From Isoperla grammatica (taxonomy: Eukaryota; Arthropoda; Insecta; Plecoptera; Perlodidae): a DNA stretch of 64,000 nt. The number at the start of each line of letters is the position of its first letter. Position 1 is the first letter of the stretch. Made by a program: the position numbers and the translations under genes. The notes below the pieces were generated by a model. That model saw nothing but the letters and a program-made list of their open reading frames with translations, did not search any database and was not told the DNA's origin. The DNA lies in assembly GCA_945910005.1 (NCBI GenBank), contig OX246743.1, forward strand, positions 44,736,736-44,800,735, given 5' to 3'. Shown here piece after piece: positions 3,325 through 44,649 of the stretch.

Positions 3325-3650
3325 CTAAATCATGCATGCATGCATTTACTTGTAAAACTAACAGCTATACAATGCTGAGCCTTCTGCTCTGTAGTTGAAC
3401 CTGAAGCTTGATCCTGTCAGCTTTGTAAAGTGTGATTCACGTATGAATCCCTCTTCTGTATGTTGTACTTCCATTCAACAATGGACAACCTGATGCTTTG
3501 AGGCGTAGTTAAGTTGCCCAAGAGACAATAAGACCACATTCAAAGCCTCCTTAGCTCGGCTTCTCCAGTTTAGCTCAACTCAATGATGTTTTAACCAATA
3601 TAATCACGTGAAGTCTTCACTGGTGGTTGAACCGTGACTGAGCTAAACTT

Positions 3651-3806
3651 CAAGTAACCATGGCAACGACTGTTACACCTTGAATCCCTCTGCACAGTGC
3701 TGCACCCTGTTGTCGGGCGACAGGTATAATAAACTCCAAGTAACCATGGCAACGAGCTATTATAGCGTGAATCCCTCTGCACAGTGCTGCACTCTGTTGT
3801 CGGGCG
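3651..3806 (-). repeat. Tandem duplication of the 3' end of the four-pass gene
   Basis: Two copies about 86 bp apart (3651-3719 and 3737-3806) share CAAGTAACCATGGCAACGA and TGAATCCCTCTGCACAGTGC. On the minus strand the upstream copy is the end of the last coding exon plus its stop. The downstream copy repeats the last codons (PDNRVQHCAEGF, then KV and a stop instead of TL and a stop) inside the 3' UTR. The divergent endings show that the copies are not brand new. A transcript reaching the second copy would gain nothing unless splicing or readthrough intervened. Confidence 0.8.
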
Positions 3807-4084: not shown

Positions 4085-4800
4085 ACGTTTACTGCTACTG
4101 CTACTGCTATACTACGGCTATCCTATGTTTACTGCTACTGCTACTGCTACTGCCATACTGCTACTGCTATGCTACGGCTATCCTACTGATACTGCTACTG
4201 CTATAGTGCTACTGCTATGCTACGGCTATACTGCTACTGCTATGCTCCTGCTATACTGCTACTGCTATACTGCTACTGCTATGCTACGGCTATACTGCTA
4301 CTGCTATGCTCCTGCTATACTGCTACATGCTATACTGCTACTGCTATGCTACGGCTATACTGCTACTGCTATGCTACGGCTATACTGCTACTGCTATGCT
4401 CCTGCTATACTGCTACATGCTATACTGCTACTGCTATGCTACGGCTATACTGCTACATGCTATACTGCTACTGCTATGCTACGGCTATACTGCTACTGCT
4501 ATGCTACGGCTATACTGCTACTGCTATGCTCCTGCTATACTGCTACATGCTATACTGCTACTGCTATGCTACGGCTATACTGCTACTGCTATGCTACGGC
4601 TATACTGCTACTGCTATGCTCCTGCTATACTGCTACATGCTATACTGCTACTGCTATGCTACGGCTATACTGCTACTGCTATGCTACGGCTATACTGCTA
4701 CTGCTATGCTCCTGCTATACTGCTACATGCTATACTGCTACTGCTATACTGCTACATGATATACTGCTACTGCTACTGCTACTGCTACTGCTAGTCTGCT
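4085..4800. repeat. Compound microsatellite with 90-bp higher-order unit, in intron 3 of the four-pass gene
   Basis: About 700 bp built from ACTGCT, ATGCTACGGCT and CTCCTGCTATACTGCTAC blocks. CTCCTGCTATACTGC recurs at 4309, 4399, 4529, 4619 and 4709, mostly 90 bp apart, so a higher-order unit exists. Large parts are open in all three plus-strand frames, which is a repeat artefact and not a gene (Leu/Tyr/Cys/Ala only). The array ends 25 bp from the exon 3 donor. In the transcript it reads as AGCAGTAGCAGTATAGCAG-type sequence. Confidence 0.95.
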
Positions 4801-4824
4801 ACTAATACTGGTCTGGTTGCGTAC

Positions 4825-19677: not shown

Positions 19678-19935
19678 CTGACCTTGTGACCCCCCCTCCC
19701 CCCATGTCGACCCCGTCCCCCCCGCCCGGGGACCTGTCCCCCACTATCAAGATGGACGGCGATGTCCCCCTGAAGCTGGACGGTGTTGACGGCAACGTGG
19801 AGGGGCCGCAGCCCCCCGCTCTGCCCCCTCGTCCGCCCCCCCGCCCCCGAGCCCCTGGACCCCAGGACCCTAGGGAGGCGACGGGAAGCAGTGAGGAGAC
19901 ACACCTGGGCAGACAACACGCCATCGCTCACAGAG
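19678..19935 (+). CDS. ENTREP-like gene, proline-rich N-terminal exon (isoform A start)
   Basis: The exon runs from a C-rich acceptor (TTTCCCCCAG) to the donor CACAGAG/GTATGT, 258 bp, phase 1 at both ends. Only this frame is open on joining to the TM1 exon at 33830. It encodes DLVTPPPPMSTPSPPPGDL, an acidic KMDGDVPLKLDG segment, and PALPPRPPPRPRAPGPQ, a PxxP-rich stretch likely to bind SH3 or WW domains. The ATG at 19704 gives a 1263-residue protein; the ATG at 19752 has the better purine context. The region is cytoplasmic in the expected four-pass topology. It is skippable, so the first exon at 25365 gives an alternative N-terminus. Confidence 0.7.
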
Positions 19936-20810
19936 GTATGTATCACTGAAACATACCCCAACCTGCTCCTTATCTGACCACTTCTTTTATACACGCTATT
20001 CAACGAAAGTCAACCGATTCCTAGAGCTGGAGACCACGATTGTTTCAGATTGTAAGAGCGTCGGTTCTTCAAGCCGAGGGACTCGAGCTCGATTCCCGGT
20101 CAGAACCAACATTTTCATAAACCGATACCTCATCAATTCATCAGTTGCCACTATACTGTGCTGTTACTTGTTAATCCTTATCCTGTTGTTTATTAAACTG
20201 ATTTACAAATGACACATGAATATTACTACGCAGTGTACAATAAAACAATAACAATAACAATAACATCGAACACAATATATACGAATGAAGCAAGTAGGTA
20301 AACAAGAACCATATAATCTATAAACTGTACATAAGAAAAGCAATTATGATCGATGATTGAATATGATTGATTAATTTAGAACCTCAAGAAGTAACTAATA
20401 AGATACCATGTTTTAGGCTAAACCGGTATAGATGATATAGCTTTGTGTTCACCGTCCGAGCTACCTCAGACATAATCGAGGCGAGGTGAGTTGAGTTCAC
20501 GACGGTTGAACTGTGGCTTGATTTCTTACTGATCACATTCACACCACTTGGTGCTTTTGAGGTATTGTGGGCTTTCACGAGCTGTCGGTGAAGTCGATAG
20601 TTGAGCTTTACAAATAAAAATAAATTACGATTATTGTGGTACATACAAACTCTTCAATTTTGTTTTCCTAATCGAACAAGTCTAAAAAGAAAACTCTCGA
20701 TGAATAACGTCCTTCGCGCATAAAATAAACAATGAAGATATAAAATTATATTTTCTGTATTTGTGGTAACCCGTGCACCCCCAGGCTTGAACATGATTAC
20801 ACCAACATTG
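19936..20810 (+). other. Intron with a tRNA-like remnant
   Basis: At about 20045-20105 there is an A-box-like TTCAGATTGTAAGAGCG followed by a B-box-like GCTCGATTCCC, correctly ordered and spaced for a tRNA gene. The acceptor and T stems do not pair, so it is a tRNA pseudogene or a SINE head rather than a working tRNA. The remainder is AT-rich with nothing recognisable. Confidence 0.35.
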
Positions 20811-23576: not shown

Positions 23577-25015
23577 CTCCCCTCCTCCTCTCTAGGTTGG
23601 ATGTAAGAGAAGGCCCAACTAGCCTTAATCACGCCTGAAAATTAAGATATTTATCTATTTATCTATCTATCGCTCTTGTTATGGATTACGCATCTTCATG
23701 TAATTGGGCCACTATGGCGGGGGAGGGGGAGGGGGAGTCATAGATAAATGACTCCGTGCTCTCAATAGTCGTAGATTGATGAAAGGCTTGCCAGTCGTGC
23801 GGGAGTACCCAGAGCATAATCGTTATCTGCTCAGCATCTGGTTGGTTCAAACCATCGGTGTTATAATAATGTTAGTAAAGAACTTTCATTCTTCAATGTG
23901 TTATTATTATCACCTTTCAGAAACATATTTACTATCCCGAAACCACTCACGGAGAAAGTGTTTGTGTACGATCAAGTTTAATTAGTTCTATATAGTCTTA
24001 TTTTTGTTTACCAACTTTGCCCCAAATATTTAGTTTTGTGAGTGGCGCTTTTTTAAATTAATAAACAGATCGATACCACGTTGTAATGTTATCTCTGTAT
24101 CAAATCAACATAGTTTTCCGAGATCTTTCTTCATTCACCACAAATATTGTAATTCCGAGCACTTACACAATTTAAATTTACGTAGATTTTTTGTATTTCA
24201 ACTAAACAACTTAGAAAATGTTGCGGAGTGTAGACAATACTTTAACACATAGCCTACTATATACTAATTTCTTATTATAACATTTCCAATTTGTATTCTG
24301 GACACTTGTTTCCTAATGACAGATTTTAGAAGGATGTATTTTCCAAGTCACCCTCTAATCGTAATTTCTAGGTAGGGGGTCGAAAAGGTTGTATTTGTGA
24401 AGTTATAAAGGGTCAGAAAAAATATGTATGAACTGTAATAATTCTTGAAATGGGTGTTCGTTTTTTTGCGTTTGATTCTTAGGCCTACTCCATGGGCGGT
24501 TCTATTATCATATTTAATACATTACTTGCAGCACACTGCATTCCTATTATACTCATACATGGCGAGCTCAGACTCAACCAAGTATAGCTAAACAGAATTA
24601 ATTTCAACGATAATGGGCTGGACACTGAGATAGTGTTTGTTGCTTCCCCTACTCTCTTCCATTCAATTATCTTTGTTCTCTACACTAGCCGACATTTGAA
24701 TCAAGGCTAGTAAACATCAACACCTCTTCTGCAGTTCCTAGCTGCATGTGGAATTCTTTCAACTTTCAAATAAGCTTACTTGCTCCAAAATGTTATCAAG
24801 ACCTACATAATATAGGTACTCTAACAAAAGTATTAAGAAAGTACTACGTTTGAATAAAATTAGATATTATTGAAATTGTCTAATGGTAATAATGGTTGTC
24901 TAATATTGTAGATCTTGAAAAATATGGATATTGAATGTAATTTGAAAAATCCGACTCTAAAGTAACTCAAATGCACGGTAGAGCGAGTAAATCGGGCTAA
25001 TCACCCTGCTCTCTG
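21091..25015. other. Intron / 5' region, no exon identified
   Basis: This is AT-rich DNA with a run of TC repeats near 22339-22358 and a B-box-like AATTCGAACC near 22790. No open frame with convincing splice signals was found. The long (CT)n at 23503 is listed separately. Confidence 0.5.
23503..23570. repeat. (CT)n microsatellite, about 34 units
   Basis: An uninterrupted CT run of about 68 bp, read on the minus strand as GA repeats. GA/CT repeats are binding sites for GAGA-type factors in insects, but no promoter is evident here. Confidence 0.97.
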
Positions 25016-25150
25016 GCGGGCGTCGCGCGAACCTACCACTACACTGCGACCTAGCGGGCGTCGTGCGAACCCACAACCACACTGCGATCTAGCGAGCGTC
25101 GCGCGAACCCACCACTATACACTGCGATCTAGCGGGCGTCGCTTGAACCC
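25016..25150. repeat. 38-bp CpG-rich tandem repeat, four copies, upstream of exon B
   Basis: GCGGGCGTCGCGCGAACC followed by a CACTACACTGCGAYCTA stretch recurs at 25016, 25054, 25092 and 25132. It is the most CpG-dense tract in the area and lies about 215 bp before the alternative first exon at 25365, so it may be part of a promoter. Confidence 0.85.
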
Positions 25151-25364: not shown

Positions 25365-25440
25365 ATGCACGGGTATCCGGTGATGCAGGTGGTGGAGTAC
25401 CGAGTACCTGCTGAGGAGGGGCCTACGCTTCACCCGCAAG
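25365..25440 (+). CDS. ENTREP-like gene, alternative first coding exon (isoform B start)
   Basis: The ATG at 25365 follows an in-frame TGA at 25326-25328, so the frame opens here. The exon encodes MHGYPVMQVVEYRVPAEEG then PTLHPQ and ends in phase 1 at CCGCAAG/GTACAG. That is the phase needed for the TM1 exon at 33830, giving HPQ-V-LRRSCWLRKYVF. The resulting protein is 1211 residues. CpG-rich sequence and a 38-bp repeat lie just upstream, consistent with a separate promoter. No transcript evidence is available. Confidence 0.6.
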
Positions 25441-28131
25441 GTACAGACATAGTGTTTATCACTATTCATTCACCTCTCCACATATGCCCTTTGTTTGTGT
25501 TGATTCACATTCTCATCTCATCTGATTGTTTCTTAATTTTGAGTAATTGACGTTTATAAGTGTAAATTTGTTCACTATTTACATTTACATTTACATTTAG
25601 GTCTGAGTAGGCTACGTTTAATACTTAGGTTAAAGGTGATGAGTTTGGGTATTTAAGAAGTGACATTCGAGACCGAAAATGAAGTGTTTGTTCATTATTG
25701 ATTGTATCCTGTATTTATCCGGGATGAGGATCTTAGCACCTTCTATATTGAGCTGCAATTATTGTCGTTAGGTTTTGGTACCACACAAAGAGGTTAAACG
25801 TGATTATTTCCGCTTAATTGGCAACATCTAACATGACTCTTTATGTATTATATAGTTACATATAATTGGGGTTATAATAGTGGCATTGCGTGTGTGTTTC
25901 TCTCAATGATAAGGGGGGGGGGGGGAGGGGGCTTTATATCTAACCACACAAATGAACAGAAGCTTCCTCTCAACACTTCTAGTGTATTATCTTTTCCTAG
26001 AGGCTTTTACTTTTATGTGATCAGCTTTGGCTTACTAGGCGCAATCTCATTCACGCTAACACATAAAATCATACCTATATGTTATGTGTCGTCATCTAAA
26101 AAGATATTTATGTGGAATTACCAGCGAAATAAATACGATAAACGCATTTTACTTTCAAGCGGTTTGTGTGTGTTATATTGATAATAAAATGCTTGAGAAC
26201 AGTGTTAGCTTCCACCAAACGCCAGCTAAAACATTGCACCAATGAAGTGCCCATCGAAAGTAGAAACAAATGCCTTAAATTGGCACCTGGCGTATACTGC
26301 ATGAATACATCCACAGTAACAACGAGGATATCCCGAGCGTAGAAGCTGTGTCCGAAGCTAATGTCACTGCACAGTGGACGAACCTTCCCACGCAACACGT
26401 ACGTCACGACGTAGAGCGCTCACGCACCTCATTACAGCAAAACACTGCAATTCTCTTCTCTTGTGTATGTGCGGCTTCGTCTGTCAGAATCTGTTCCGTC
26501 ATTTCAATCACTGGGCCTAACTCGCTTTATTAACTTCTTGAGAACGTGATTCACACCCGCGGGATTTTGATTTATTTTCGGGAGGATTCAACAAAATGTG
26601 ATAGTTTTCTCAACTTCCTTGGAGGAAAACAACTAACTGTTATTGTGTGTTATTTTACACGAACTCGATCCAACCAGTCATACAACCCAAATCTTATTCC
26701 TTGTCTGTGTCTATCCACCCTACAGTAACCTAAATTCTCTACATACATAATGAATAATGAACTTGTTCTTGCTGTGGCCACTTTTTACACTTCCAACCTC
26801 ACGAGCAAACTAAATGTAAACAAGACTCATGTTAATCGCGGCTATGTTTCTATTGAGAACGATGTTGGCAAGTCTAGAGTTGAATAGTTTTTCAACTAGG
26901 AAAGTCAGCATTTGACCCGGCTAACCATCAATCATGTATTTGCCAATCAATTATATGTTTGAGAATCTAGACGCGGTTAGAGAAAAGAGAAAGAAATACT
27001 TCTCAAATAACAACTACTTTCGAAAACAAAAACCAGAACGGGCGGTTCGCTTGGTTATACCATTGTGATTTACATGTGTTTTATGTTCCTTGGACCTATT
27101 GTATGGGTCTGCACACCACCCTTGTCGTGTCTATAAAGAACACGCTATCTGTAAGTTCTAGACTTAATTGATGTAAGCCTGCGCTGAAGTTAGAGCGCTT
27201 ATTTGAATATACCTATGTCAAGCTTATTTTCATATTCTTTACACGTGGGACAAAGTAATTAATTCATTAATACATTTATATACTCGACAGCTAAGTCATA
27301 TAAGGACGGCCGAATTGATAATATTAGAGATGGCGTTTGTTTCAAGTTCGACTGTTCTCCAACACTACTAAAAAAACAACACAAAGAAATGCTCTTAATC
27401 TTCTCAAAACATGACAACACACAAGTTTCCCTCCATCATGGTCGCTGTGGCGTCATGTGAATACTGCCTATAAACGCAGGGCAGCACCGCTAAATGCTGG
27501 ACCGCCGGAGCCAAGCCGAGAGCTTGCTTATAGTCTTTTAAATTATAATTAATTCTGTATTTCTAACATGCACCGTCCATTATAGCTTGAGGAGGTTTGA
27601 ATATTTCATTAATGGGGGTTGACAGACTGACATGACGATTGGTTTCATGAAAACAACAAGTAAATGTAGTAATAGATAGCGACAACCCTCAACCCTTCTA
27701 CTTTACCAAACCGAGGTAAAATCATTTCAGAAACTCGTCTACTATCAGAAGCAATTACAAATATATTTGATGAAATAAGATTATTAAAGGATAAATACTA
27801 ATCAATAAATCAATGGATGTGATTAGGTCCTGGACTAAGACTAAGACGAAAGGAACAAATATAACATTACGGGAGCTTACATTTGAAACACTGTAACTGT
27901 AACATAGTTTCAATAACCTCTACCAACCACCCATGTATCATTAGTGTTAAGAGAACGCAAAGCCGAGTTCTCCAACACAGAATCGATCATCTCTTCCTAT
28001 CGAATCTCATCGACGCCTCCAGCCCCTTCATCATCACCGACAACATCAATTTTAATGAGTATTCAAGGCAACACTCACACAACGAGACAAAAAAACACAT
28101 CAGCGTGCGTAAATTCCTCTTTAATTCCTAT
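25441..28131 (+). other. Intron 5' of the acceptor array
   Basis: AT-rich with a G tract at 25914-25930. A Ser/Thr/Pro-rich open stretch at about 27944-28110 has a weak acceptor and a donor phase that does not fit the following exon, so it is not called. The original, unduplicated intron tail of the array (CACACCTTTGATTGGC) is at its end. Confidence 0.5.
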
Positions 28132-31100
28132 TGATTAGTCCACACCTTTGATTGGCTAACTTGTTTCAGTACTGCGGCGGTCCTGCTGGCTACGCAAGTA
28201 TGTGTTCCTATGTACGGCTTGTGGCGGCCTAGCTCTCTATGTTACTGGGGGCTCTGTTTCTCACCGTCTACTTCATGCTACGGTCCTACACCACCTCGCT
28301 TACTTAGTGCACACCTGTGATTGGCTGTCTTGTTTCAGTACTGCGGCGGTCCTGCTGGCTACGCAAGTATGTGTTCCTATGTACGGCTTGTGGCGGCCTC
28401 TCTGTGTTACTGGGGGCTCTGTTTCTCACCGTCTACTTCATGCTACGCTCCTACACCACCTCGCTTACTTAGTCCACACCTGTGATTGGCTGTCTTGTTT
28501 CAGTACTGCGGCGATCCTGCTGGCTACGCAAGTATGTGTTCCTATGTACGGCTTGTGGCGGCCTAGCTCTCTATGTTACTGGGGGCTCTGTTTCTCACCG
28601 TCTACTTCATGCTACGCTCCTACACCACCTCGCTTACTTAGTGCACACCTGTGATTGGCCGTCTTGTTTCAGTACTGCGGCGGTCTTGCTGGCTACGCAA
28701 GTATGTGTTCCTATGTACGGCTTGTGGCGGCCTAGCTCTCTGTGTTACTGGGGGCTCTGTTTCTCACCGTCTACTTCATGCTACGGTCCTACACCACCTC
28801 GCTTACTTAGTGCACACCTGTGATTGGCTGTCTTGTTTCAGTACTGCGGCGATCCTGCTGGCTACGCAAGTATGTGTTCCTATGTACGGCTTGTGGCGGC
28901 CTAGCTCTCTATGTTACTGGGGGCTCTGTTTCTCACCGTCTACTTCATGCTACGGTCCTACACCACCTCGCTTACTTAGTGCACACCTGTGATTGGCCGT
29001 CTTGTTTCAGTACTGCGGCGGTCTTGCTGGCTACGCAAGTATGTGTTCCTATGTACGGCTTGTGGCGGCCTCTCTGTGTTACTGGGGGCTCTGTTTCTCA
29101 CCGTCTACTTCATGCTACGGTCCTACACCACCTCGCTTACTTAGTGCACACCTGTGATTGGCTGTCTTGTTTCAGTACTGCGGCGATCCTGCTGGCTACG
29201 CAAGTATGTGTTCCTATGTACGGCTTGTGGCGGCCTCTCTGTGTTACTGGGGGCTCTGTTTCTCACCGTCTACTTCATGCTACGGTCCTACACCACCTCG
29301 CTTACTTAGTGCACACCTGTGATTGGCTGTCTTGTTTCAGTACTGCGGCGGTCCTGCTGGCTACGCAAGTATGTGTTCCTATGTACGGCTTGTGGCGGCC
29401 TCTCTGTGTTACTGGGGGCTCTGTTTCTCACCGTCTACTTCATGCTACGGTCCTACACCACCTCGCTTACTTAGTCCACACCTGTGATTGGCTGTCTTGT
29501 TTCAGTACTGCGGCGATCCTGCTGGCTACGCAAGTATGTGTTCCTATGTACGGCTTGTGGCGGCCTCTCTGTGTTACTGGGGGCTCTGTTTCTCACCGTC
29601 TACTTCATGCTACGCTCCTACACCACCTCGCTTACTTAGTCCACACCTGTGATTGGCTGTCTTGTTTCAGTACTGCGGCGGTCCTGCTGGCTACGCAAGT
29701 ATGTGTTCCTATGTACGGCTTGTGGCGGCCTCTCTGTGTTACTGGGGGCTCTGTTTCTCACCGTCTACTTCATGCTACGGTCCTACACCACCACGCTTAC
29801 TTAGTGCACACCTGTGATTGGCTGTCTTGTTTCAGTACTGCGGCGGTCCTGCTGGCTACGCAAGTATGTGTTCCTATGTACGGCTTGTGGCGGCCTCTCT
29901 GTGTTACTGGGGGCTCTGTTTCTCACCGTCTACTTCATGCTACGGTCCTACACCACCTCGCTTACTTAGTGCACACCTGTGATTGGCTGTCTTGTTTCAG
30001 TACTGCGGCGATCCTGCTGGCTACGCAAGTATGTGTTCCTATGTACGGCTTGTGGCGGCCTCTCTGTGTTACTGGGGGCTCTGTTTCTCACCGTCTACTT
30101 CATGCTACGGTCCTACACCACCTCGCTTACTTAGTGCACACCTGTGATTGGCTGTCTTGTTTCAGTACTGCGGCGATCCTGCTGGCTACGCAAGTATGTG
30201 TTCCTATGTACGGCTTGTGGCGGCCTCTCTGTGTTACTGGGGGCTCTGTTTCTCACCGTCTACTTCATGCTACGGTCCTACACCACCTCGCTTACTTAGT
30301 GCACACCTGTGATTGGCTGTCTTGTTTCAGTACTGCGGCGATCCTGCTGGCTACGCAAGTATGTGTTCCTATGTACGGCTTGTGGCGGCCTCTCTGTGTT
30401 ACTGGGGGCTCTGTTTCTCACCGTCTACTTCATGCTACGGTCCTACACCACCTCGCTTACTTAGTCCACACCTGTGATTGGCTGTCTTGTTTCAGTACTG
30501 CGGCGATCCTGCTGGCTACGCAAGTATGTGTTCCTATGTACGGCTTGTGGCGGCCTCTCTGTGTTACTGGGGGCTCTGTTTCTCACCGTCTACTTCATGC
30601 TACGGTCCTACACCACCTCGCTTACTTAGTACACACCTGTGATTGGCTGTCTTGTTTCAGTACTGCGGCGATCCTGCTGGCTACGCAAGTATGTGTTCCC
30701 ATGTACGGCTTGTGGCGGCCTAGCTCTCTGTGTTACTGGGGGCTCTGTTCTCACCGTCTACTTCATGCTACGGTCCTACACCACCTCGCTTACTTAGTGC
30801 ACACCTGTGATTGGCTGTCTTGTTTCAGTACTGCGGCGCTCCTGCTGGCTACGCAAGTATGTGTTCCTATGTACGGCTTGTGGCGGCCTCTCTGTGTTAC
30901 TGGGGGCTCTGTTTCTCACCGTCTACTTCATGCTACGGTCCTACACCACCTCGCTTACTTAGTACACACCTGTGATTGGCTGTCTTGTTTCAGTACTGCG
31001 GCGATCCTGCTGGCTACGCAAGTATGTGTTCCTATGTACGGCTTGTGGCGGCCTAGCTCTCTGTGTTACTGGGGGCTCTGTTTCTCACCGTCTACTTCAT

Positions 31101-33829
31101 GCTACGGTCCTACACCACCTCGCTTACTTAGTGCACACCTGTGATTGGCTGTCTTGTTTCAGTACTGCGGCGATCCTGCTGGCTACGCAAGTATGTGTTC
31201 CTATGTACGGCTTGTGGCGGCCTAGCTCTCTGTGTTACTGGGGGCTCTGTTTCTCACCGTCTACTTCATGCTACGGTCCTACACCACCTCGCTTACTTAG
31301 TGCACACCTGTGATTGGCTGTCTTGTTTCAGTACTGCGGCGGTCCTGCTGGCTACGCAAGTATGTGTTCCTATGTACGGCTTGTGGCGGCCTCTCTGTGT
31401 TACTGGGGGCTCTGTTTCTCACCGTCTACTTCATGCTACGGTCCTACACCACCTCGCTTACTTAGTCCACACCTGTGATTGGCTGTCTTGTTTCAGTACT
31501 GCGGCGATCCTGCTGGCTACGCAAGTATGTGTTCCTATGTACGGCTTGTGGCGGCCTCTCTGTGTTACTGGGGGCTCTGTTTCTCACCGTCTACTTCATG
31601 CTACGGTCCTACACCACCTCGCTTACTTAGTACACACCTGTGATTGGCTGTCTTGTTTCAGTACTGCGGCGATCCTGCTGGCTACGCAAGTATGTGTTCC
31701 TATGTACGGCTTGTGGCGGCCTCTCTGTGTTACTGGGGGCTCTGTTTTCACCGTCTACTTCATGCTACGGTCCTACACCACCTCGCTTACTTAGTACACA
31801 CCTGTGATTGGCTGTCTTGTTTCAGTACTGCGGCGGTCCTGCTGGCTACGCAAGTATGTGTTCCTATGTACGGCTTGTGGCGGCCTAGCTCTCTATGTTA
31901 CTGGGGGCTCTGTTTCTCACCGTCTACTTCATGCTACGGTCCTACACCACCTCGCTTACTTAGTGCACACCTGTGATTGGCTGTCTTGTTTCAGTACTGC
32001 GGCGGTCCTGCTGGCTACGCAAGTATGTGTTCCTATGTACGGCTTGTGGCGGCCTCTCTGTGTTACTGGGGGCTCTGTTTCTCACCGTCTACTTCATGCT
32101 ACGGTCCTACACCACCTCGCTTACTTAGTGCACACCTGTGATTGGCTGTCTTGTTTCAGTACTGCGGCGGTCCTGCTGGCTACGCAAGTATGTGTTCCTA
32201 TGTACGGCTTGTGGCGGCCTCTCTGTGTTACTGGGGGCTCTGTTTCTCACCGTCTACTTCATGCTACGGTCCTACACCACCTGGCTTACTTAGTGCACAC
32301 CTGTGATTGGCTGTCTTGTTTCAGTACTGCGGCAGTCCTGCTGGCTACGCAAGTATGTGTTCCTATGTACGGCTTGTGGCGGCCTCTCTGTGTTACTGGG
32401 GGCTCTGTTTCTCACCGTCTACTTCATGCTACGGTCCTACACCACCTGGCTTACTTAGTGCACACCTGTGATTGGCTGTCTTGTTTCAGTACTGCGGCAG
32501 TCCTGCTGGCTACGCAAGTATGTGTTCCTATGTACGGCTTGTGGCGGCCTAGCTCTCTGTGTTACTGGGGGCTCTGTTTCTCACCGTCTACTTCATGCTA
32601 CGGTCCTACACCACCTGGCTTACTTAGTGCACACCTATGATTGGCTGTCTTGTTTCAGTACTGCGGCGATCCTGCTGGCTACGCAAGTATGTGTTCCTAT
32701 GTACGGCTTGTGGCGGCCTAGCTCTCTGTGTTACTGGGGGCTCTGTTTCTCACCGTCTACTTCATGCTACGGTCCTACACCACCTGGCTTACTTAGTGCA
32801 CACCTATGATTGGCTGTCTTGTTTCAGTACTGCGGCGATCCTGCTGGCTACGCAAGTATGTGTTCCTATGTACGGCTTGTGGCGGCCTAGCTCTCTGTGT
32901 TACTGGGGGCTCTGTTTCTCACCGTCTACTTCATGCTACGGTCCTACACCACCTGGCTTACTTAGTGCACACCTGTGATTGGCTGTCTTGTTTCAGTACT
33001 GCGGCGATCCTGCTGGCTACGCAAGTATGTGTTCCTATGTACGGCTTGTGGCGGCCTCTCTGTGTTACTGGGGGCTCTGTTTCTCACCGTCTACTTCATG
33101 CTACGGTCCTACACCACCTCGCTTACTTAGTGCACACCTGTGATTGGCTGTCTTGTTTCAGTACTGCGGCGATCCTGCTGGCTACGCAAGTATGTGTTCC
33201 TATGTACGGCTTGTGGCGGCCTAGCTCTCTGTGTTACTGGGGGCTCTGTTTCTCACCGTCTACTTCATGCTACGGTCCTACACCACCTCGCTTACTTAGT
33301 GCACACCTGTGATTGGCTGTCTTGTTTCAGTACTGCGGCGATCCTGCTGGCTACGCAAGTATGTGTTCCTATGTACGGCTTGTGGCGGCCTCTCTGTGTT
33401 ACTGGGGGCTCTGTTTCTCACCGTCTACTTCATGCTACGGTCCTACACCACCTCGCTTACTTAGTGCACACCTGTGATTGGCTGTCTTGTTTCAGTACTG
33501 CGGCGATCCTGCTGGCTACGCAAGTATGTGTTCCTATGTACGGCTTGTGGCGGCCTCTCTGTGTTACTGGGGGCTCTGTTTCTCACCGTCTACTTCATAC
33601 TACGGTCCTACACCACCTCGCTTACTTAGTGCACACCTGTGATTGGCTGTCTTGTTTCAGTACTGCGGCGATCCTGCTGGCTACGCAAGTATGTGTTCCT
33701 ATGTACGGCTTGTGGCGGCCTAGCTCTCTGTGTTACTGGGGGCTCTGTTTCTCACCGTCTACTTCATGCTACGCTCCTACACCACCTCGCTTACTTAGTG
33801 CACACCTGTGATTGGCTGTCTTGTTTCAG
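28132..33829 (+). repeat. Array of 34 truncated copies of the TM1 exon head with its 3' splice site
   Basis: Each unit is about 38 bp of intron tail (CACACCTGTGATTGGC ... CTTGTTTCAG) plus the first 127 bp of the exon at 33830. Exon-start positions are 28170, 28339, 28504, 28673, 28842, 29011, 29176, then every 165 bp to 30661, and on to 33661. Spacing is 165 bp in most units; 13 units carry an extra AGCT (169 bp, one of them 168 after a base loss) and one is 164 bp. Copies are nearly identical. Every unit keeps the polypyrimidine tract and AG but lacks the exon's 3' part and its donor, running instead into CTTACTTAG. In the true reading frame the 165-bp units stop at that TAG; the AGCT units are frameshifted. 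Long open frames across the array, one about 770 codons, are off-frame by-products. Confidence 0.95.
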
Positions 33830-33999
33830 TACTGCGGCGGTCCTGCTGGCTACGCAAGTATGTGTTCCTATGTACGGCTTGTGGCGGCCTCTCTGTGTTA
33901 CTGGGGGCTCTGTTTCTCACCGTCTACTTCATGCTACGGTCCTACACCACCTCGCTCAACTACTTCGAGACCATCCCCACCTACGTTCCAGCCACCATG
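33830..33999 (+). CDS. ENTREP-like four-pass protein, TM1 exon (complete 35th copy)
   Basis: The 170-bp exon completes a Val codon from the upstream phase-1 exon and encodes 56 more residues: LRRSCWLRK, then TM1 (about residues 88-112 of isoform A, YVFLCTACGGLSVLLGALFL), a loop, and the start of TM2 (YVPATM). It ends in phase 0 at GCCACCATG/GTACGA. It is the only copy of the array with the exon's 3' part (from CAACTACTTCGAG) and a usable donor. Exon definition should therefore favour its acceptor over the 34 upstream ones. It lacks the AGCT insertion that would shift the frame. Confidence 0.88.
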
Positions 34000-34075
34000 G
34001 TACGACAATCATTTTATTATTACAACGCTTATATTAGCTTCATGTGTTTGTCTGTCTGTCTGTCTGGACGGAATC
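34000..34075 (+). other. Intron start with short CTGT repeat
   Basis: After the donor the intron has a TGTCTGTCTGTCTGTC stretch near 34047-34064, then enters the 148-bp AT-rich repeat. Confidence 0.5.
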
Positions 34076-34980: not shown

Positions 34981-35305
34981 AGTATAAAATATTATTACAT
35001 GAAAAAAATAATTTTTTTAACAAACAACGCTTATATTTAAATGCACTAAAAAGTAAAAAATAAATTTTCGCCCAACAAATTTTTGCCTCACTCGGAAAAT
35101 AAAAGCGTTGGGCGCTTTCGGTAATCGGTATTGACATAGATTACAGTATTCTGCTGTTTATGCAGGAAAAGCGCCCAACACTTTTATTTTCCAAGTGAGG
35201 CAAAAATTTGTTGGGCGAAAATTTATTTTTTACTTTTTTGTGCATTTAAATATAAGCGTTGTTTGTTAAAAAAAATTATTTTTTTCATGTAATATTATTT
35301 ATACT
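34981..35305. mobile_element. Foldback MITE (about 325 bp) in the ENTREP-like gene
   Basis: The arms 34981-35128 and 35168-35305 are inverse copies. AAATTTTCGCCCAACAAAT pairs with ATTTGTTGGGCGAAAATTT, and AAGCGTTGGGCGC with GCGCCCAACACTT. The hairpin is long and near-perfect with a loop of about 40 bp. No coding capacity. Confidence 0.85.
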
Positions 35306-38114: not shown

Positions 38115-38177
38115 CTGATCGTGACTGGCTTTATGGTGATGTGTCTAGCTGGACGAAGGAACCGCTACAGCTACCTG
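38115..38177 (+). CDS. ENTREP-like four-pass protein, TM2 exon
   Basis: A 63-bp phase-0 exon between TTGTCTGTTTCAG and CTACCTG/GTGAGT. It encodes residues 135-155 of isoform A, LIVTGFMVMCLAGRRNRYSY then L. It completes TM2 and gives a basic cytoplasmic loop (GRRNR). Both phases match the neighbours. The stretch after the donor contains short ATGTGCCAAA repeats before the next array. Confidence 0.85.
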
Positions 38178-38282
38178 GTGAGTTACCTAACAATCACATA
38201 ATGCGCGTGGCAGCCATATTATGTGCCAATTTTTATGTGCCAAATGTGTGCCAAATGTGTGTATTATGTGCCAAAGTTTCAG

Positions 38283-39167
38283 ATAAAACTGTGCGGCGGC
38301 TATTGTCTTTGTTGTGCCGTGCTGTCACCATGACAACGTGCGCCATCTTGTTTCAGATAAAACTGTGCGGCGGCTGCTGTCTTTGTTGTGCCGTGCTGTT
38401 ACCATGACAACGTGCGCCATCTTGTTTCAGATAAAACTGTGCGGCGGCTGCTGTCTTTGTTGTGCCGTGCTGTTACCATGACAACGTGCGCCATCTTGTT
38501 CCAGATAAAACTGTGCGGCGGCTGCTGTCTTTGTTGTGCCGTACTGTTACCATGACAACGTGCGCCATCTTGATTCAGATAAAACTGTGCGGCGGCTGCT
38601 GTCTTTGTTGTGCCGTGCTGTTACCATGACAACGTGCGCCATCTTGTTTCAGATAAAACTGTGCGGCGGCTGCTGTCTTTGTTGTGCCGTACTGTTACCA
38701 TGACAACGTGCGCCATCTTGTTTCAGATAAAACTGTGCGGCGGCTGCTGTCTTTGTTGTGCCGTACTGTAACCATGACAACGTGCGCCATCTTGTTTCAG
38801 ATAAAACTGTGCGGCGGCTGCTGTCTTTGTTGTGCCGTACTGTCACCATGCAGTGCGCCATCTTGTTTCAGATAAAACTGTGCGGCGGCTGCTGTCTTTG
38901 TTGTGCCGTACCGTCACCATGACAACGTGCGCCATCTTGTTTCAGATAAAACTGTGCGGCGGCTGCTGTCTTCGTTGTGCCGTACTGTTACCATGACAAC
39001 GTGCGCCATCTTGTTTCAGATAAAACTGTGCGGCGGCTGCTGTCTTTGTTGTGCCGTACTGTCACCACGACAACGTGCGCCATCTTGTTTCAGATAAAAC
39101 TGTGCGGCGGCTACTGTCTTTGTTGTGCCGTACTGTTACCATGACAACGTGCGCCATCTTGTTTCAG
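38283..39167 (+). repeat. Array of 12 truncated copies of the TM3 exon head with its 3' splice site
   Basis: Exon-start copies (ATAAAACTGTGCGGCGGCTG) occur at 38283, 38357, 38431, 38505, 38579, 38653, 38727, 38801, 38872, 38946, 39020 and 39094, a 74-bp period with one 71-bp unit. Each has the first 42 bp of the real exon, then lacks the TGTGTTGTGG of the full exon, resumes weak exon homology (TTACCATGACAAC for TTACCGTGACAAC), and continues into GTGCGCCATCTTGTTTCAG, the next acceptor. In frame each copy reads IKLCGGCCLCCAVLLP and stops. One acceptor is CCAG rather than TTCAG (38504) and one is GATTCAG (38578); most match. Confidence 0.93.
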
Positions 39168-39354
39168 ATAAAACTGTGCGGCGGCTGCTGTCTTTGTTGT
39201 GCCGTGCTGTGTGTTGTGGTTACCGTGACAACCACGGTATTCCACATGAACAGGCTCCAGTCGCTAAGGGAGTGTGTGTTCACACAGAAGACACAAACGT
39301 GCACCTGCTACTCGGTGCTTCTCGACTCGCAGACTTCGGAGCGCGGAGACGAAG
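39168..39354 (+). CDS. ENTREP-like four-pass protein, TM3 and extracellular loop exon (complete 13th copy)
   Basis: A 187-bp exon starting in phase 0 and ending in phase 1 at GACGAAG/GTGCGT. It encodes residues 156-217: TM3 (IKLCGGCCLCCAVLCVVVTV to about residue 181), then a loop with Cys residues (RECVF, TQTCTCYSVL) and an acidic end (SERGDEG). The Cys pattern between TM3 and TM4 parallels the extracellular loop of ENTREP/FAM189 and other CD20-like proteins. Unlike its 12 truncated neighbours it has the whole exon and a donor. Confidence 0.88.
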
Positions 39355-39593: not shown

Positions 39594-39738
39594 GAGTGCG
39601 CTACATCTTCAACAACACCCCCGACTGTGAGGTGATCCACGGCGCTCTGTACTCCTGCCTGCGAGCCATGTTCGGCCTCTCTGTCATCGGGATCCTCGTC
39701 TGCATCTTCTCATGCATGCTCGTCTACCAGCTGCTCAG
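39594..39738 (+). CDS. ENTREP-like four-pass protein, TM4 exon
   Basis: The acceptor ATTCTCCGCAG is followed by a 145-bp exon, phase 1 in and phase 2 out (CTGCTCAG/GTGAGA). It encodes GVRYIFNNTPDCEVIHGALY and TM4 at about residues 241-264 (FGLSVIGILVCIFSCMLVYQ). NNT is a potential N-glycosylation site on the extracellular side. The DC..I spacing before a final hydrophobic segment is the feature that most suggests the ENTREP/FAM189 family. TMEM255 and other CD20-like tetraspans remain possible. Confidence 0.88.
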
Positions 39739-40534: not shown

Positions 40535-40870
40535 CATCTACCATGAATTGAGACACTCTGTGAGCAACAACTAATAGGTATAGAATGTTTTTTTATCAAA
40601 ATTTGTTTGTTGTGATTACTTACATATCCCAAAAAGACGATAACCGTGTACGATTACCCGAATAAGTGAAATTCATTATAGTATATATAACTGTCAATCG
40701 TCAGTTTAAAAGATATTTACAAAATTGTATGTGCAGATCGATTTAAAAATATATTTTCTTAAAAATACAACATATTATTTTAAAATCGATCAAAACAAGT
40801 AAACGTAGCAATTATTCGTGAAGATCGCCCGATTCAAAATGGGTTCTAAATGAAACGCGTCCCACCGCCG
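40535..40870 (+). other. Intron, no other feature seen
   Basis: AT-rich intron sequence between the hAT-like element and the duplicated tail exon. Confidence 0.5.
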
Positions 40871-41064
40871 CACGGATAGATTGTGACTGTTTGTTGTGTT
40901 GGTATTGCAGCCACGAGAAGAAGAAGATGTACTGGGAGCAGCTGGAGCTACGGTGTCGCTATCTGTCGCGGCAACAGCGCAGCCAACACTGCGCCTGCTG
41001 TGATGAGTGTCGCTTCCCTCCGCCGCACGGATAGATTGTGACTGTTGTTGTGTTGGTATTGCAG
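40871..41064 (+). repeat. Truncated duplicate of the first tail exon with its 3' splice site
   Basis: A complete acceptor (GTTGGTATTGCAG) at 40910 is followed by a copy of the first 114 bp of the exon at 41065. The copy then switches at CCTCCGCC to GCACGGATAGATTG, which repeats the intron tail and its acceptor. The unit is 154 bp. The exon portions differ at only two sites, TGT/TGC codons that are synonymous. Read in frame, the truncated copy ends FPPPHG then stop. This is a third case of the exon-head duplication seen at the TM1 and TM3 exons. Confidence 0.92.
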
Positions 41065-41229
41065 CCACGAGAAGAAGAAGATGTACTGGGAGCAGCTGGA
41101 GCTACGGTGTCGCTATCTGTCGCGGCAACAGCGCAGCCAACACTGCGCCTGCTGCGATGAGTGCCGCTTCCCTCCGCCAGCCCACGAGATGTTCCCCTGG
41201 GAGCTGGATGACAGATACTGGACTCCCAG
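41065..41229 (+). CDS. ENTREP-like protein, first cytoplasmic tail exon
   Basis: A 165-bp exon, phase 2 in and phase 2 out (ACTCCCAG/GTAACC). It encodes SHEKKKMYWEQLELRCRYLS, a basic juxtamembrane segment, then a Cys cluster (HCACCDECRF) and FPPPAHEMFPWELDDRYW. Its acceptor is the second of two identical ones; only this copy continues to a donor. The Cys cluster near the membrane could be palmitoylated (inference). Confidence 0.87.
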
Positions 41230-41696: not shown

Positions 41697-41849
41697 GGTT
41701 GGCAACCTGTACAGCCCAAACCCTGGAGGGCCCGAAGTAGCCACATCTCGCCGGTCTGGCTGGAGTTGGAGACGACTCCCGTGGAGCAGGAGTACCACCG
41801 CACCAACCCACAACGTACCAACAGTGATGCCAACAGAACCAACTATCGG
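41697..41849 (+). CDS. ENTREP-like protein, second tail exon
   Basis: A 153-bp exon after TTGTGTTCCAG, ending ACTATCGG/GTAGGT. Phase 2 in and phase 2 out is forced by the large open frame of the last exon. It gives RVGNLYSPNPGGPEVATSRR then SGWSWRRLPWSRS. A second frame (GWQPVQPKPWRARSS...) is also open but would create a frame clash on both sides. The segment is basic, Trp- and Ser-rich, cytoplasmic. Confidence 0.8.
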
Positions 41850-41972: not shown

Positions 41973-44649
41973 ATGCGTATCCAATCAGCGAAACTTGCGA
42001 CACTCCACTGCGAGCCCCGACAGCCAATACGGCTTCAGTTCTCGGCCTCAGCCGTCTCCAAACCTCAATCCAACGGCCGCAACACCTGTGAACCCCCCTG
42101 CCCAAACGCCGACATGTCAGAACACACAACCCTTCAGTACAGAGTCGTCCCAGAGTTTCTACCTGTGGGGCCCACCACCCCCTTACACCAGCCCTTGTCG
42201 CCGACAACCCCTCCTCAACCTGCTGAGACAGCGCAGTCCTCAGAGGGTTGTGCACAACTGTCACCAGGGGCGTCAGTGCTGCCCCGCTAAGCCAGCCGAA
42301 CATAGACCAGGACAGTTTGTTGACGTCAGCAGTTCAGTCGCCGAGCCCGTGAGAGTTCAGGGCGTAGAGTTAGTGAAGGCGAGGTGCAAAGAAGGTGAAA
42401 GGAGAGAAGAAAGATGTGTGGAGCCGTCCTGCCAAAGAGGCCAATGCACGGATGAGAGGTGTGAGGCAAACTTCAGCCGGGAAGATCCGCGAGCTTTGAA
42501 CTACAAGGATCGCATCGTCAATATGTTTCCTGTACGCGCGGATCATATGCCGAGCATGTCCAGCTCCTCAGGTGAGCTGAGCAACGGGAAGAACTGCGAG
42601 AACTACGTCAACACCTCCGAGGGTGAGCTCATGTTCGAGGACAGTTGCTCCGGGGACAACACGTCGGGAACCGGCAGGGAGAACAATACTTTGCCCGTTC
42701 GCAAGAGTAAGAAGTTTTTAGGCGGCTGTTCAGAAGGTCATTTGAATAGCAGTGTGAATCGGGGTCTACCCGTTGGGCAGCCACGTAACCAGACCAGACA
42801 TGACGGCTGCCAGATCAGTGCTGATAGGCTAAGTCAGATGGAGGGGTACGAGGGGTTGCAGGAGTGCAGCACAGGGCAAGAGCAATGCTGCCAACGTTGC
42901 CAGTTCCAACGGGAACGTAGAGATATTCACATGGACTTTGATGGAGTTCACCGGGCTCAAGTAGGAGATGGTAACAGATCTCATATAGACGGCGACATGG
43001 CGGGAAGCAATCTATCAGGTCCTCCCAACGTCCAAATGTCGCCTAGAATCAAGTATCTAGCCCGGCTGGAGGGAATCGCCAACCAAGCGTTTGAAAACCA
43101 AGAGTGCGGTCAGGGTTCCTCCAAGAACGAACCAACAGAGAGCGAAGTTTATTTCGCAGACGTTTCTTCCTGTTGTAACGTAAGTGTCAAGAACGACGGC
43201 CACGACAGTTCCATATACGACGAGGCTTTAGATCCGCAGAGTCAGTCGTTCAAGCTACACCAACACGGGCCCCATCCGGCAGCCCGCAGATACACTCACA
43301 GTGATTCAGTTCCCGTCCAAGTGTCGCACAAACATCCTTCCAACAGTCCGGGCAAGGACGCCGTCCATAGACCTCCCTACGAAGAGGACTTCTCCCTCCA
43401 CAAACACAGTCCCGTCCGAATGGTGCCGGAAGCCGTGCACAGGCTAAACTACAAGGATGACGTCCCCTTGAGGAACATTCACCCGCATGTCCACAGACCT
43501 CTCCAGGAGGCGACCCCACAACCCGGTGCGCACAGGCCACACTACGGCGAGGACATTCCGCAGCTACCGCACCACAGACTCCTTCGAGACGTTCCGCACC
43601 GGCTTCCCTTCATTGAAGACAAGCACAAACACGCACAGGAGATGCTCAGTCAGCCCAATGTCTACCCGGACCCGCGAGCTGTGAACCCCGCTCACTTCCG
43701 TAACCCCGAGAACAGAGGCCACCACATCGGCCTCGAGGAGAACGACTCAGAGGATGAGACCCTTCTGCAGAGTCACTGTTTTAGTTATCAAAGGTTCGCA
43801 AAGAGTCAGAATCCGGGTTATTTATTGAGAAGTGAGCAGGATAGGATTAGAATGCTGGAGGAATTGAGTTTGCGCGGTTCGGGTGGTGGACCGGTTAGAG
43901 GGATCCCTAGCCAAGACGACGGGGGTCAGAGGGTGATCATTGGGGACGGCTACCAGATCCCCTGCGAGGAGATGGAGATGGAGTGTAGTAGTAACAGCGC
44001 CACGCCGTTGTCCGAGAACACTGACTCCACATTCATCAGTCCGATGACGCCGCACGACGGTAGCGCACCGTTCTACGGCATGGAGCTCGAACCGGAAGCC
44101 GTCACCAGTTGCAGCCACAATCAGAACAACACAAACACAGCCTACGAGCAGACCGGAAGTCCGAAGAGCTTTCCTCTGCACCAGATCAGGGACAACAGTT
44201 TCGAGAACACGGAGTTCCTGGCGCCGGACGCGCAGTACGAGACGATACCGCCTCAGACGCCGCAGAAGCCGAGGGCGGCGAAGCGGGACGACAACGGCAA
44301 CGTCGAGGGGGGCGGGGGGGAGTGTCCGACGCCGCAGAGACGCCGCCTCAACCTCAACGTCAACGCGGCAACGTCGCCGAGCGTGCGAGAGATACTGAGC
44401 AGCTTCGAGAGTGGCCACCAGGCGACGCGCGCGACCAGAGACTTCGAGGGCGGTGGGAACCTCTCCACCGACGAGGACGTACAACAGGTGCAGAGTGACG
44501 CCACCATGGACTCTGGCTGTCATAGCGACGAGTTCACGTCGCGACGCCACGCGGCCAGGGCGTCGCTCAGGGCGAAGGAGGGCCCTGGTAACAACCCCGG
44601 CCGCAAAGACCAACAGGAACTCAATACTAGTCGTTCTGTAAACGTGTAA
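41973..44649 (+). CDS. ENTREP-like protein, large terminal exon (long disordered tail with PPxY)
   Basis: The acceptor TTTCCTTCTTTCAG is followed by a 2677-bp exon to TAA at 44647-44649, encoding residues about 372-1263 of isoform A. Early on it has GPPPPYTSP (PPPY at about residues 440-443), the type of site bound by WW domains of Nedd4/Itch-class ubiquitin ligases and used by vertebrate ENTREP proteins. The rest is low-complexity and hydrophilic: Cys-containing, His-rich repeats (HRPPYEED, HRLNYKDD, HRPHYGED, HRLPFIED) at about 43370-43620, acidic blocks, and a conserved-looking Ser/Thr-rich C-terminus (TDEDVQQVQSDATMDSGCHS). The summed coding length of all exons is divisible by three for both starts. 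Predicted role: membrane adaptor in endocytic or ubiquitin-dependent trafficking (family inference). Confidence 0.9.

Follow-up and report, generated by a model that had tools for sequence, protein, structure and literature searches.

An exon of a gene in the 64-kb window (the whole stretch of DNA analysed, 64,000 nucleotides) is preceded by a long tandem array of its own acceptor region, here called array 1. We regard this array, with a probability of about 0.8, as a minisatellite straddling the intron-exon boundary (a 'mirage') that is tolerated as exon definition picks the last acceptor. A previous reading of the same DNA (the sequence-only reading) had listed tolerance through the choice of the last copy among its options, and it is this option that we favour. 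Slippage or unequal exchange between short near-repeats of intron and exon would have duplicated a segment of intron tail, acceptor and exon head, with amplification to follow. Every such duplication would spare one complete exon, invariably the donor-adjacent copy, and the protein would be unharmed if the spliceosome kept to that copy, the decoy copies turning into intron sequence. Duplications over a coding edge could thus survive because one intact copy remains, and tandem duplication would be active widely in this genome, with acceptors, donors and apparently stop codons among the sites affected.

The arrays and their host gene

The motif TTTCAGTACTGC occurs 35 times at 28164-33824 of the window and provides 35 acceptors (28170-33830), and TRF delimits the array at 28135-33956 with a period of 165, 35.0 copies and 97% matches. 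Its units measure 165 or 169 bp, bar one of 168 and one of 164 bp, and the 4-bp difference lies within the exon part, in 13 of the 34 upstream copies. All copies have in common with the intact exon 2 an exon head of 127 nt, and the full exon with the donor at 34000 accompanies only the last, 35th copy. The sequence-only reading had described 35 tandem near-identical acceptors on a 165/169-bp unit, with a 127-bp exon head in the copies and the remaining exon sequence plus a donor in the last one alone, and had stated that all copies keep CTTGTTTCAG; motif positions, TRF and the comparison of units agree with it on each of these points. Exon heads are frameshifted in 13 of the 34 upstream copies, and the upstream exon copies look unconstrained.

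The motif CTTGTTTCAG is unbroken in all 35 copies, against a chance expectation of 0.23 in the window. This constancy is no sign of selection, because only 15 variable sites or indels occur along the unit, spread over its exon and intron parts alike; at that variability, simple arithmetic has ten given positions stay invariant about 4 times in 10. Selection on the acceptors was rejected as an argument, since retention of the AG has no statistical power with so few mutations between copies. Twenty-five of the 35 unit-length segments are distinct. Adjacent units show a mean of 2.33 differences versus 2.88 over all pairs and are closer than in shuffled orders (P 0.00085), and the first copy has a divergent intron tail; the likeness of nearest neighbours is as expected for a real array that grows by local duplication. 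At the RNA level, the two final units (339 nt) have a fold less stable than that of any of 100 shuffled versions (z +3.4), so there is no structural element there. As a side observation, an open frame of 777 aa runs through the array on the + strand (28811-31144), in a frame other than the gene's and because 165 is a multiple of three; it is probably meaningless, and a trap for gene finders.

Two further arrays of the same design lie in the same gene, at 38276-39210 and 40856-41178 (Table 1). Array 2 has 13 acceptors in all (38283–39168), the last being that of exon 4; every one keeps its AG, and CTTGTTTCAG is altered in three. Array 3 has two acceptors (40911 and 41065) and is young enough for its origin to be visible: its birth junction is preserved, the duplication having joined the two members of a 14-bp near repeat, CGCGTCCCACCGCC in the intron and CGCTTCCCTCCGCC in the exon. 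By self-comparison, boundary-spanning copies are present at three of the seven acceptors and at none of the eight donors of the gene.

Table 1. Features of the host gene and boundary-spanning arrays at other loci; positions count from the first letter of the window, and those marked (rel.) are window-relative.
Feature	Position	Strand	Details
Exon 1a, alternative first coding exon (PPALPPRPPPRPR...)	19704..19935	+	donor GTATGT at 19936; PPALPPRPPPRPR motif also in Lycorma protein P0009
Exon 1b, alternative first coding exon (MHGYPVMQVVEYRVP...)	25365..25440	+	donor GTACAG at 25441; Gryllus P0002 starts MQGLPVMQVVEYRVP
Array 1	28135..33829	+	34 upstream copies of intron tail, acceptor and first 127 nt of exon 2 (TRF, motif positions, unit comparison)
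Exon 2, intact (first hydrophobic segment)	33830..33999	+	on 35th acceptor; donor GTACGA at 34000
Exon 3	38115..38177	+	boundary-spanning array at neither end
Array 2	38276..39167	+	acceptors 38283-39094 in 12 upstream copies, each with the exon 4 head (43 nt) and a short tail behind the acceptor; 74-bp unit, one of 71 bp
Exon 4, intact	39168..39354	+	on 13th acceptor of array 2
Exon 5	39594..39738	+	no boundary-spanning array
Array 3	40856..41064	+	a single partial copy upstream, with acceptor 40911; 154-bp unit
Exon 6, intact	41065..41229	+	on second acceptor of array 3
Exon 7	41697..41849	+	no boundary-spanning array
Last coding exon	41973..44649	+	end ...SRSVNV stop
Cdk4/6-like exon, acceptor side	-69043 (rel.)		2 copies
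Cdk4/6-like gene, donor side	-49799 (rel.)		2 copies
NRF-6-like gene exon, acceptor side	90608 (rel.)		13 exact acceptors
NRF-6-like gene, second exon, acceptor side	93195 (rel.)		4 copies
NRF-6-like gene, donor side	101947 (rel.)		3 full units
YME1-like exon, acceptor side	157441 (rel.)	minus	8 copies
Kinase exon L031, acceptor side			2 copies, 82% identity
Kinase exons L039, L048, L059, L068, donor side

Joined, the exons give open frames of 1,263 residues with exon 1a or 1,211 with exon 1b, the phase 1 of exon 2 being compatible with the donors after 19935 and 25440. The core of the product holds four hydrophobic segments in a hydropathy scan and is 85% identical to Gryllus and 84% to Periplaneta, values which make the host a probable polyneopteran insect. 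Homologues occur arthropod-wide (88 proteins in one search, 274 in a further one), and the 120 of the 274 that were listed include cockroaches, stick insects, beetles, flies, crustaceans, a millipede, a horseshoe crab and sea spiders. Most of the names given to them are 'uncharacterized' or 'hypothetical' and a few are unrelated to one another, and Pfam yielded only matches under the curated cut-off (MFS_1, CD20, Col_cuticle_N). The C-terminal SVNV is common to Periplaneta, Bacillus, Schistocerca and others. Judged by its open frame and its homologues across arthropods, the gene is real.

The exon at 33830 is very probably in use, because the junctions at the array-bearing exons align ungapped in homologues and both first exons are matched by counterparts in relatives. 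Among the 207 fetched homologues with a match, the exon 2-exon 3 junction is ungapped in 142 of the 144 that span it; the figures are 141 of 148 for the exon 3-exon 4 junction and 166 of 170 for the exon 5-exon 6 junction. The sequence-only reading was right to take exon 2 for real coding sequence. The array-free exon 4-exon 5 junction lies in a stretch whose length varies, and just 76 of 152 homologues are ungapped there. Coding parts covered by arrays show identities of 0.87–0.89 with Periplaneta, Bacillus, Timema and Gryllus, against 0.90–0.94 among these insects (five pairs compared); for uncovered parts the corresponding ranges are 0.77–0.81 and 0.77–0.80, and pairs with Schistocerca gave 0.80 and 0.82. 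These identity figures are a weak hint that array-covered coding parts may have evolved faster.

Two other elements were noticed around these exons. A GC-rich array (38 bp x 3.6) at 25012-25150 precedes exon 1b by about 200 bp and may belong to the promoter of this exon, and the intron after exon 2 holds a long palindrome (35030-35290) whose arms carry CGCCCAACAAATTTTTGCCTC and which is MITE-like by eye.

Choice of acceptor and competing explanations

The outcome of splicing to each upstream acceptor of array 1 was predicted with exon 1b as the first exon and the other acceptors canonical. For 20 of the 34 the predicted protein ends directly behind the TM1 segment at 69 residues, and for one more at 70; the remaining 13 shift the frame, 12 of them stopping within the extended exon and one further on. 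The truncated single-pass isoforms envisaged in the sequence-only reading would arise from the copies of the first kind, if such decoys were used. Across all three arrays, first exons and acceptors can be combined in 1,820 ways, of which only 4 retain the full frame to the normal C-terminus, namely the two canonical ones and two that use acceptors 34 and 12, whose frameshifts compensate. Decoy use would nearly always be unproductive, and the gene therefore needs splicing to go almost exclusively to the final acceptor of each array.

How this acceptor would be chosen we infer from distances: the last acceptor is nearest to a donor across the exon, at 170 nt versus 339 nt or more for the others, which points to exon definition. 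The last position of the intact copy follows from geometry and is therefore no evidence about splicing. According to PMC9225289, splicing between long introns favours the sites that lie nearest to each other across the exon; for 3' sites, exon definition weakened and did not clearly reverse a preference for the upstream site, a preference also found by Reed and Maniatis 1986 as cited there. Since the upstream preference was merely reduced, the case for exon definition is weakened. For duplicated beta-globin 3' sites, in which the upstream site was followed by an exon piece of 14, 55 or 205 nt, PMC5389562 reports splicing to the downstream site only, and inefficiently. Array 2 offers the sharpest test, as intron definition predicts its first acceptor (a 105-nt intron) and exon definition its last (a 990-nt intron); the first could win because 105 nt is ideal for intron definition. 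The polypyrimidine tract has 10 of 18 pyrimidines at the first acceptor and 13 of 18 at the last.

While tolerance is the reading that we favour, the decoy acceptors could be functional, producing early-stop mRNAs (for a truncated single-pass protein or for NMD) so that copy number sets the amount of full-length protein. This is unlikely, even though with isoform 1b and the other acceptors canonical, splicing to 33 of the 34 array 1 decoys would end translation within the extended exon and to the 34th further on, the AG is kept in 13 of 13 acceptors of array 2 although three differ in CTTGTTTCAG, and one gene harbours three arrays. Retention of the AG is the powerless statistic discussed above, and arrays of a similar kind sit in unrelated genes, some of them at donors and some apparently at stop codons, positions that offer no acceptor decoy. 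The recurrence of the design in this genome, at either end of exons and apparently also over stop codons, argues against a splicing function specific to this gene. We consider it very improbable that assembly error accounts for the copy number or for the array as a whole: tandem arrays are easily miscounted, but here most unit segments are distinct and local similarity is ordered, the locus lies in a 48 Mb contig, and independent arrays with other units are found at many loci. Least credible is a role outside splicing, for example as a transcriptional element, suggested by the inverted CCAAT box of most units (GATTGGCT, 34 times in the window and 33 of these in array 1), as this box simply belongs to the duplicated intron tail and is absent by eye from the units of arrays 2 and 3.

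Boundary-spanning arrays elsewhere in the genome

A survey of arrays of period 30 or more in the window and 100 kb on each side (264 kb) yielded 42, of which 11 lie in the window and 31 outside it. Nine of the 42 span splice boundaries (seven acceptors, two donors); leaving the window aside, the proportion is 6 of 31 in 200 kb (four acceptors, two donors). Open frames were checked for 33 of the 42, and separately for the host gene's own, and boundary-spanning cases may have been missed because only GC-rich frames were shown. The neighbouring genes are presumably Cdk4/6-like, NRF-6-like and YME1-like, an assignment we base on characteristic motifs and on Pfam. The Pfam scores were just under the cut-off for Pkinase (30.8 bits; cut-off 31.7), under it for NRF (21.7 bits; 27) and over it for AAA and AAA_lid_3 on the YME1-like exon. 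The second Cdk4/6-like exon, beside the donor array, came from a kinase model search. On the second NRF acceptor exon Pfam found only a weak unrelated match, and on the NRF donor exon none.

Coding ends appear to be affected as well, judging open frames by eye. At 3644-3806, the coding end and stop of a neighbouring minus-strand gene (exons about 9170-3760; membrane-protein-like by eye) appear tandemly duplicated (87 bp x 1.9), and a 700-bp array of TACTGC type (4090-4803) lies in the last intron of that gene. At window-relative 111454-112855 (L023, L024), again on the minus strand, a 108-bp unit repeated 13 times in tandem appears to span a stop; the frame ends in the first copy, and the remaining ones would lie in the 3' UTR.

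In the window, 0.13 acceptor-spanning arrays were expected by chance and three were seen (P 0.00025, post hoc); with acceptors or donors taken together, boundary arrays still exceed chance (P 0.005, also post hoc). This excess is not explained by tolerance alone. Arrays in the 264 kb have a mean GC of 0.50 versus 0.41, with 0 of 5,000 random placements as high, and our guess would be that GC-rich exon edges cause the excess.

Beyond this region, a Pfam kinase search of the genome gave 139 exon matches, of which 111 (at most 480 bp, outside the 264-kb region) were kept. They form 92 regions (exon plus 550 bp on each side), and our sample is the first 40 of these in contig order, with 46 matches. 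Boundary-spanning tandem copies occur in 5 of the 46 sampled exons (Wilson interval 5–23%). In the same regions (59 kb), TRF reports six arrays of period 30 or more, three of which overlap an exon edge by TRF alone and a fourth (L059) by BLAST; the tandem copies of L031 went undetected by TRF. Compared with uniform placement, four of six corresponds to P about 0.007 and three of six to P about 0.05, in a rough test with unit length set to 100 bp and edges taken from HMM ends. At L059 (C14:1171878-1173193), a separate 61-bp x 8 array lies about 55 bp upstream of the kinase exon that has the donor-side array downstream. That boundary-spanning minisatellites form a pervasive mutational class here, affecting on the order of one exon in ten in a small kinase sample, is an idea to which we give little credence. 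A preference for acceptors was rejected as a general rule, as acceptor and donor counts are 3:0 in the host gene, 7:2 in the 264 kb and 1:4 in the kinase sample (total 8:6, P 0.79).

Comparison with known systems

Mutually exclusive exon arrays such as that of Dscam likewise consist of tandem exon-like copies with acceptors. The copies described here differ in having no exon end and no donor, which accompany copy 35 only, and in not being kept as distinct coding choices; a Dscam-type array was rejected on these grounds, just as the sequence-only reading had argued from the incomplete exon copies. An introner or transposed intron was also rejected: the best-scoring candidates in the 874 Mb genome (603 contigs) contain 35 matches to the sequence of exon 2 and its intron tail, every one of them at the array 1 locus, although weak copies elsewhere may be missed.

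Intron gain by tandem genomic duplication (PMC4974935, PMC3443670) resembles our case in that internal duplication puts exon sequence into introns. The difference is that no new intron is made, as the units hold no AGGT, and that an existing one grows from its 3' end; gain of the AGGT type was rejected, the motif being found in 0 of 34 units of array 1 and 0 of 12 of array 2 and being absent from the array 3 unit. Experimental duplications of 3' sites (Reed and Maniatis 1986, as cited in PMC9225289; PMC5389562) likewise set identical acceptors in competition, the upstream one with a piece of exon, but they involve two sites and not a natural series of up to 35. Arrays such as the present ones set from 2 to 35 near-identical splice sites against one another in nature, within genes that are unaltered in other respects.

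The closest counterparts are the amphioxus mirages, minisatellite-like tandem duplications of exon-intron boundaries (PMC3087553). According to PMC3087553 and PMC3902484, the word comes from the Adh3 paper cited in both, and cases include the globins BflGb6 (acceptor side) and BflGb9 (3' boundary of exon 2) as well as Adh3, with TnC and PGBD5 added in PMC3902484; RT-PCR of BflGb6 suggested regular splicing (PMC3087553). The BflGb6 unit combines the 3' end of an intron with the 5' part of an exon over 150-160 bp and leaves the authentic exon intact, both exon ends are affected among mirages, and neighbouring units are homogenised. The same traits are found in the host gene: its units contain the boundary (34, 12 and 1 upstream copies per array), the authentic exon is kept intact at one end, and array 1 joins local homogenisation (lag-1 similarity, P 0.00085) to a divergent edge unit. 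The sequence-only reading had placed the array in a category of its own, a view that gives way before the same design in amphioxus and its recurrence in this genome at both exon ends. A literature search, thin on subscription journals, found reports of boundary minisatellites from amphioxus and none from an insect, and nothing on such duplications under other names.

What sets our case apart from the amphioxus mirages is the insect host, the presence of 35 copies against 6 and 3 in two BflGb6 haplotypes, and three arrays in one gene, known here from a single assembly. The record of boundary minisatellites thereby comes to include an insect besides amphioxus, with many loci apparently involved. 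Coding sequence here belongs to a homogenising minisatellite, which calls for caution among annotators over exon predictions within such arrays. Overall, the boundary minisatellite is a known kind of element, and its insect host, its copy number and its spread within the genome are new.
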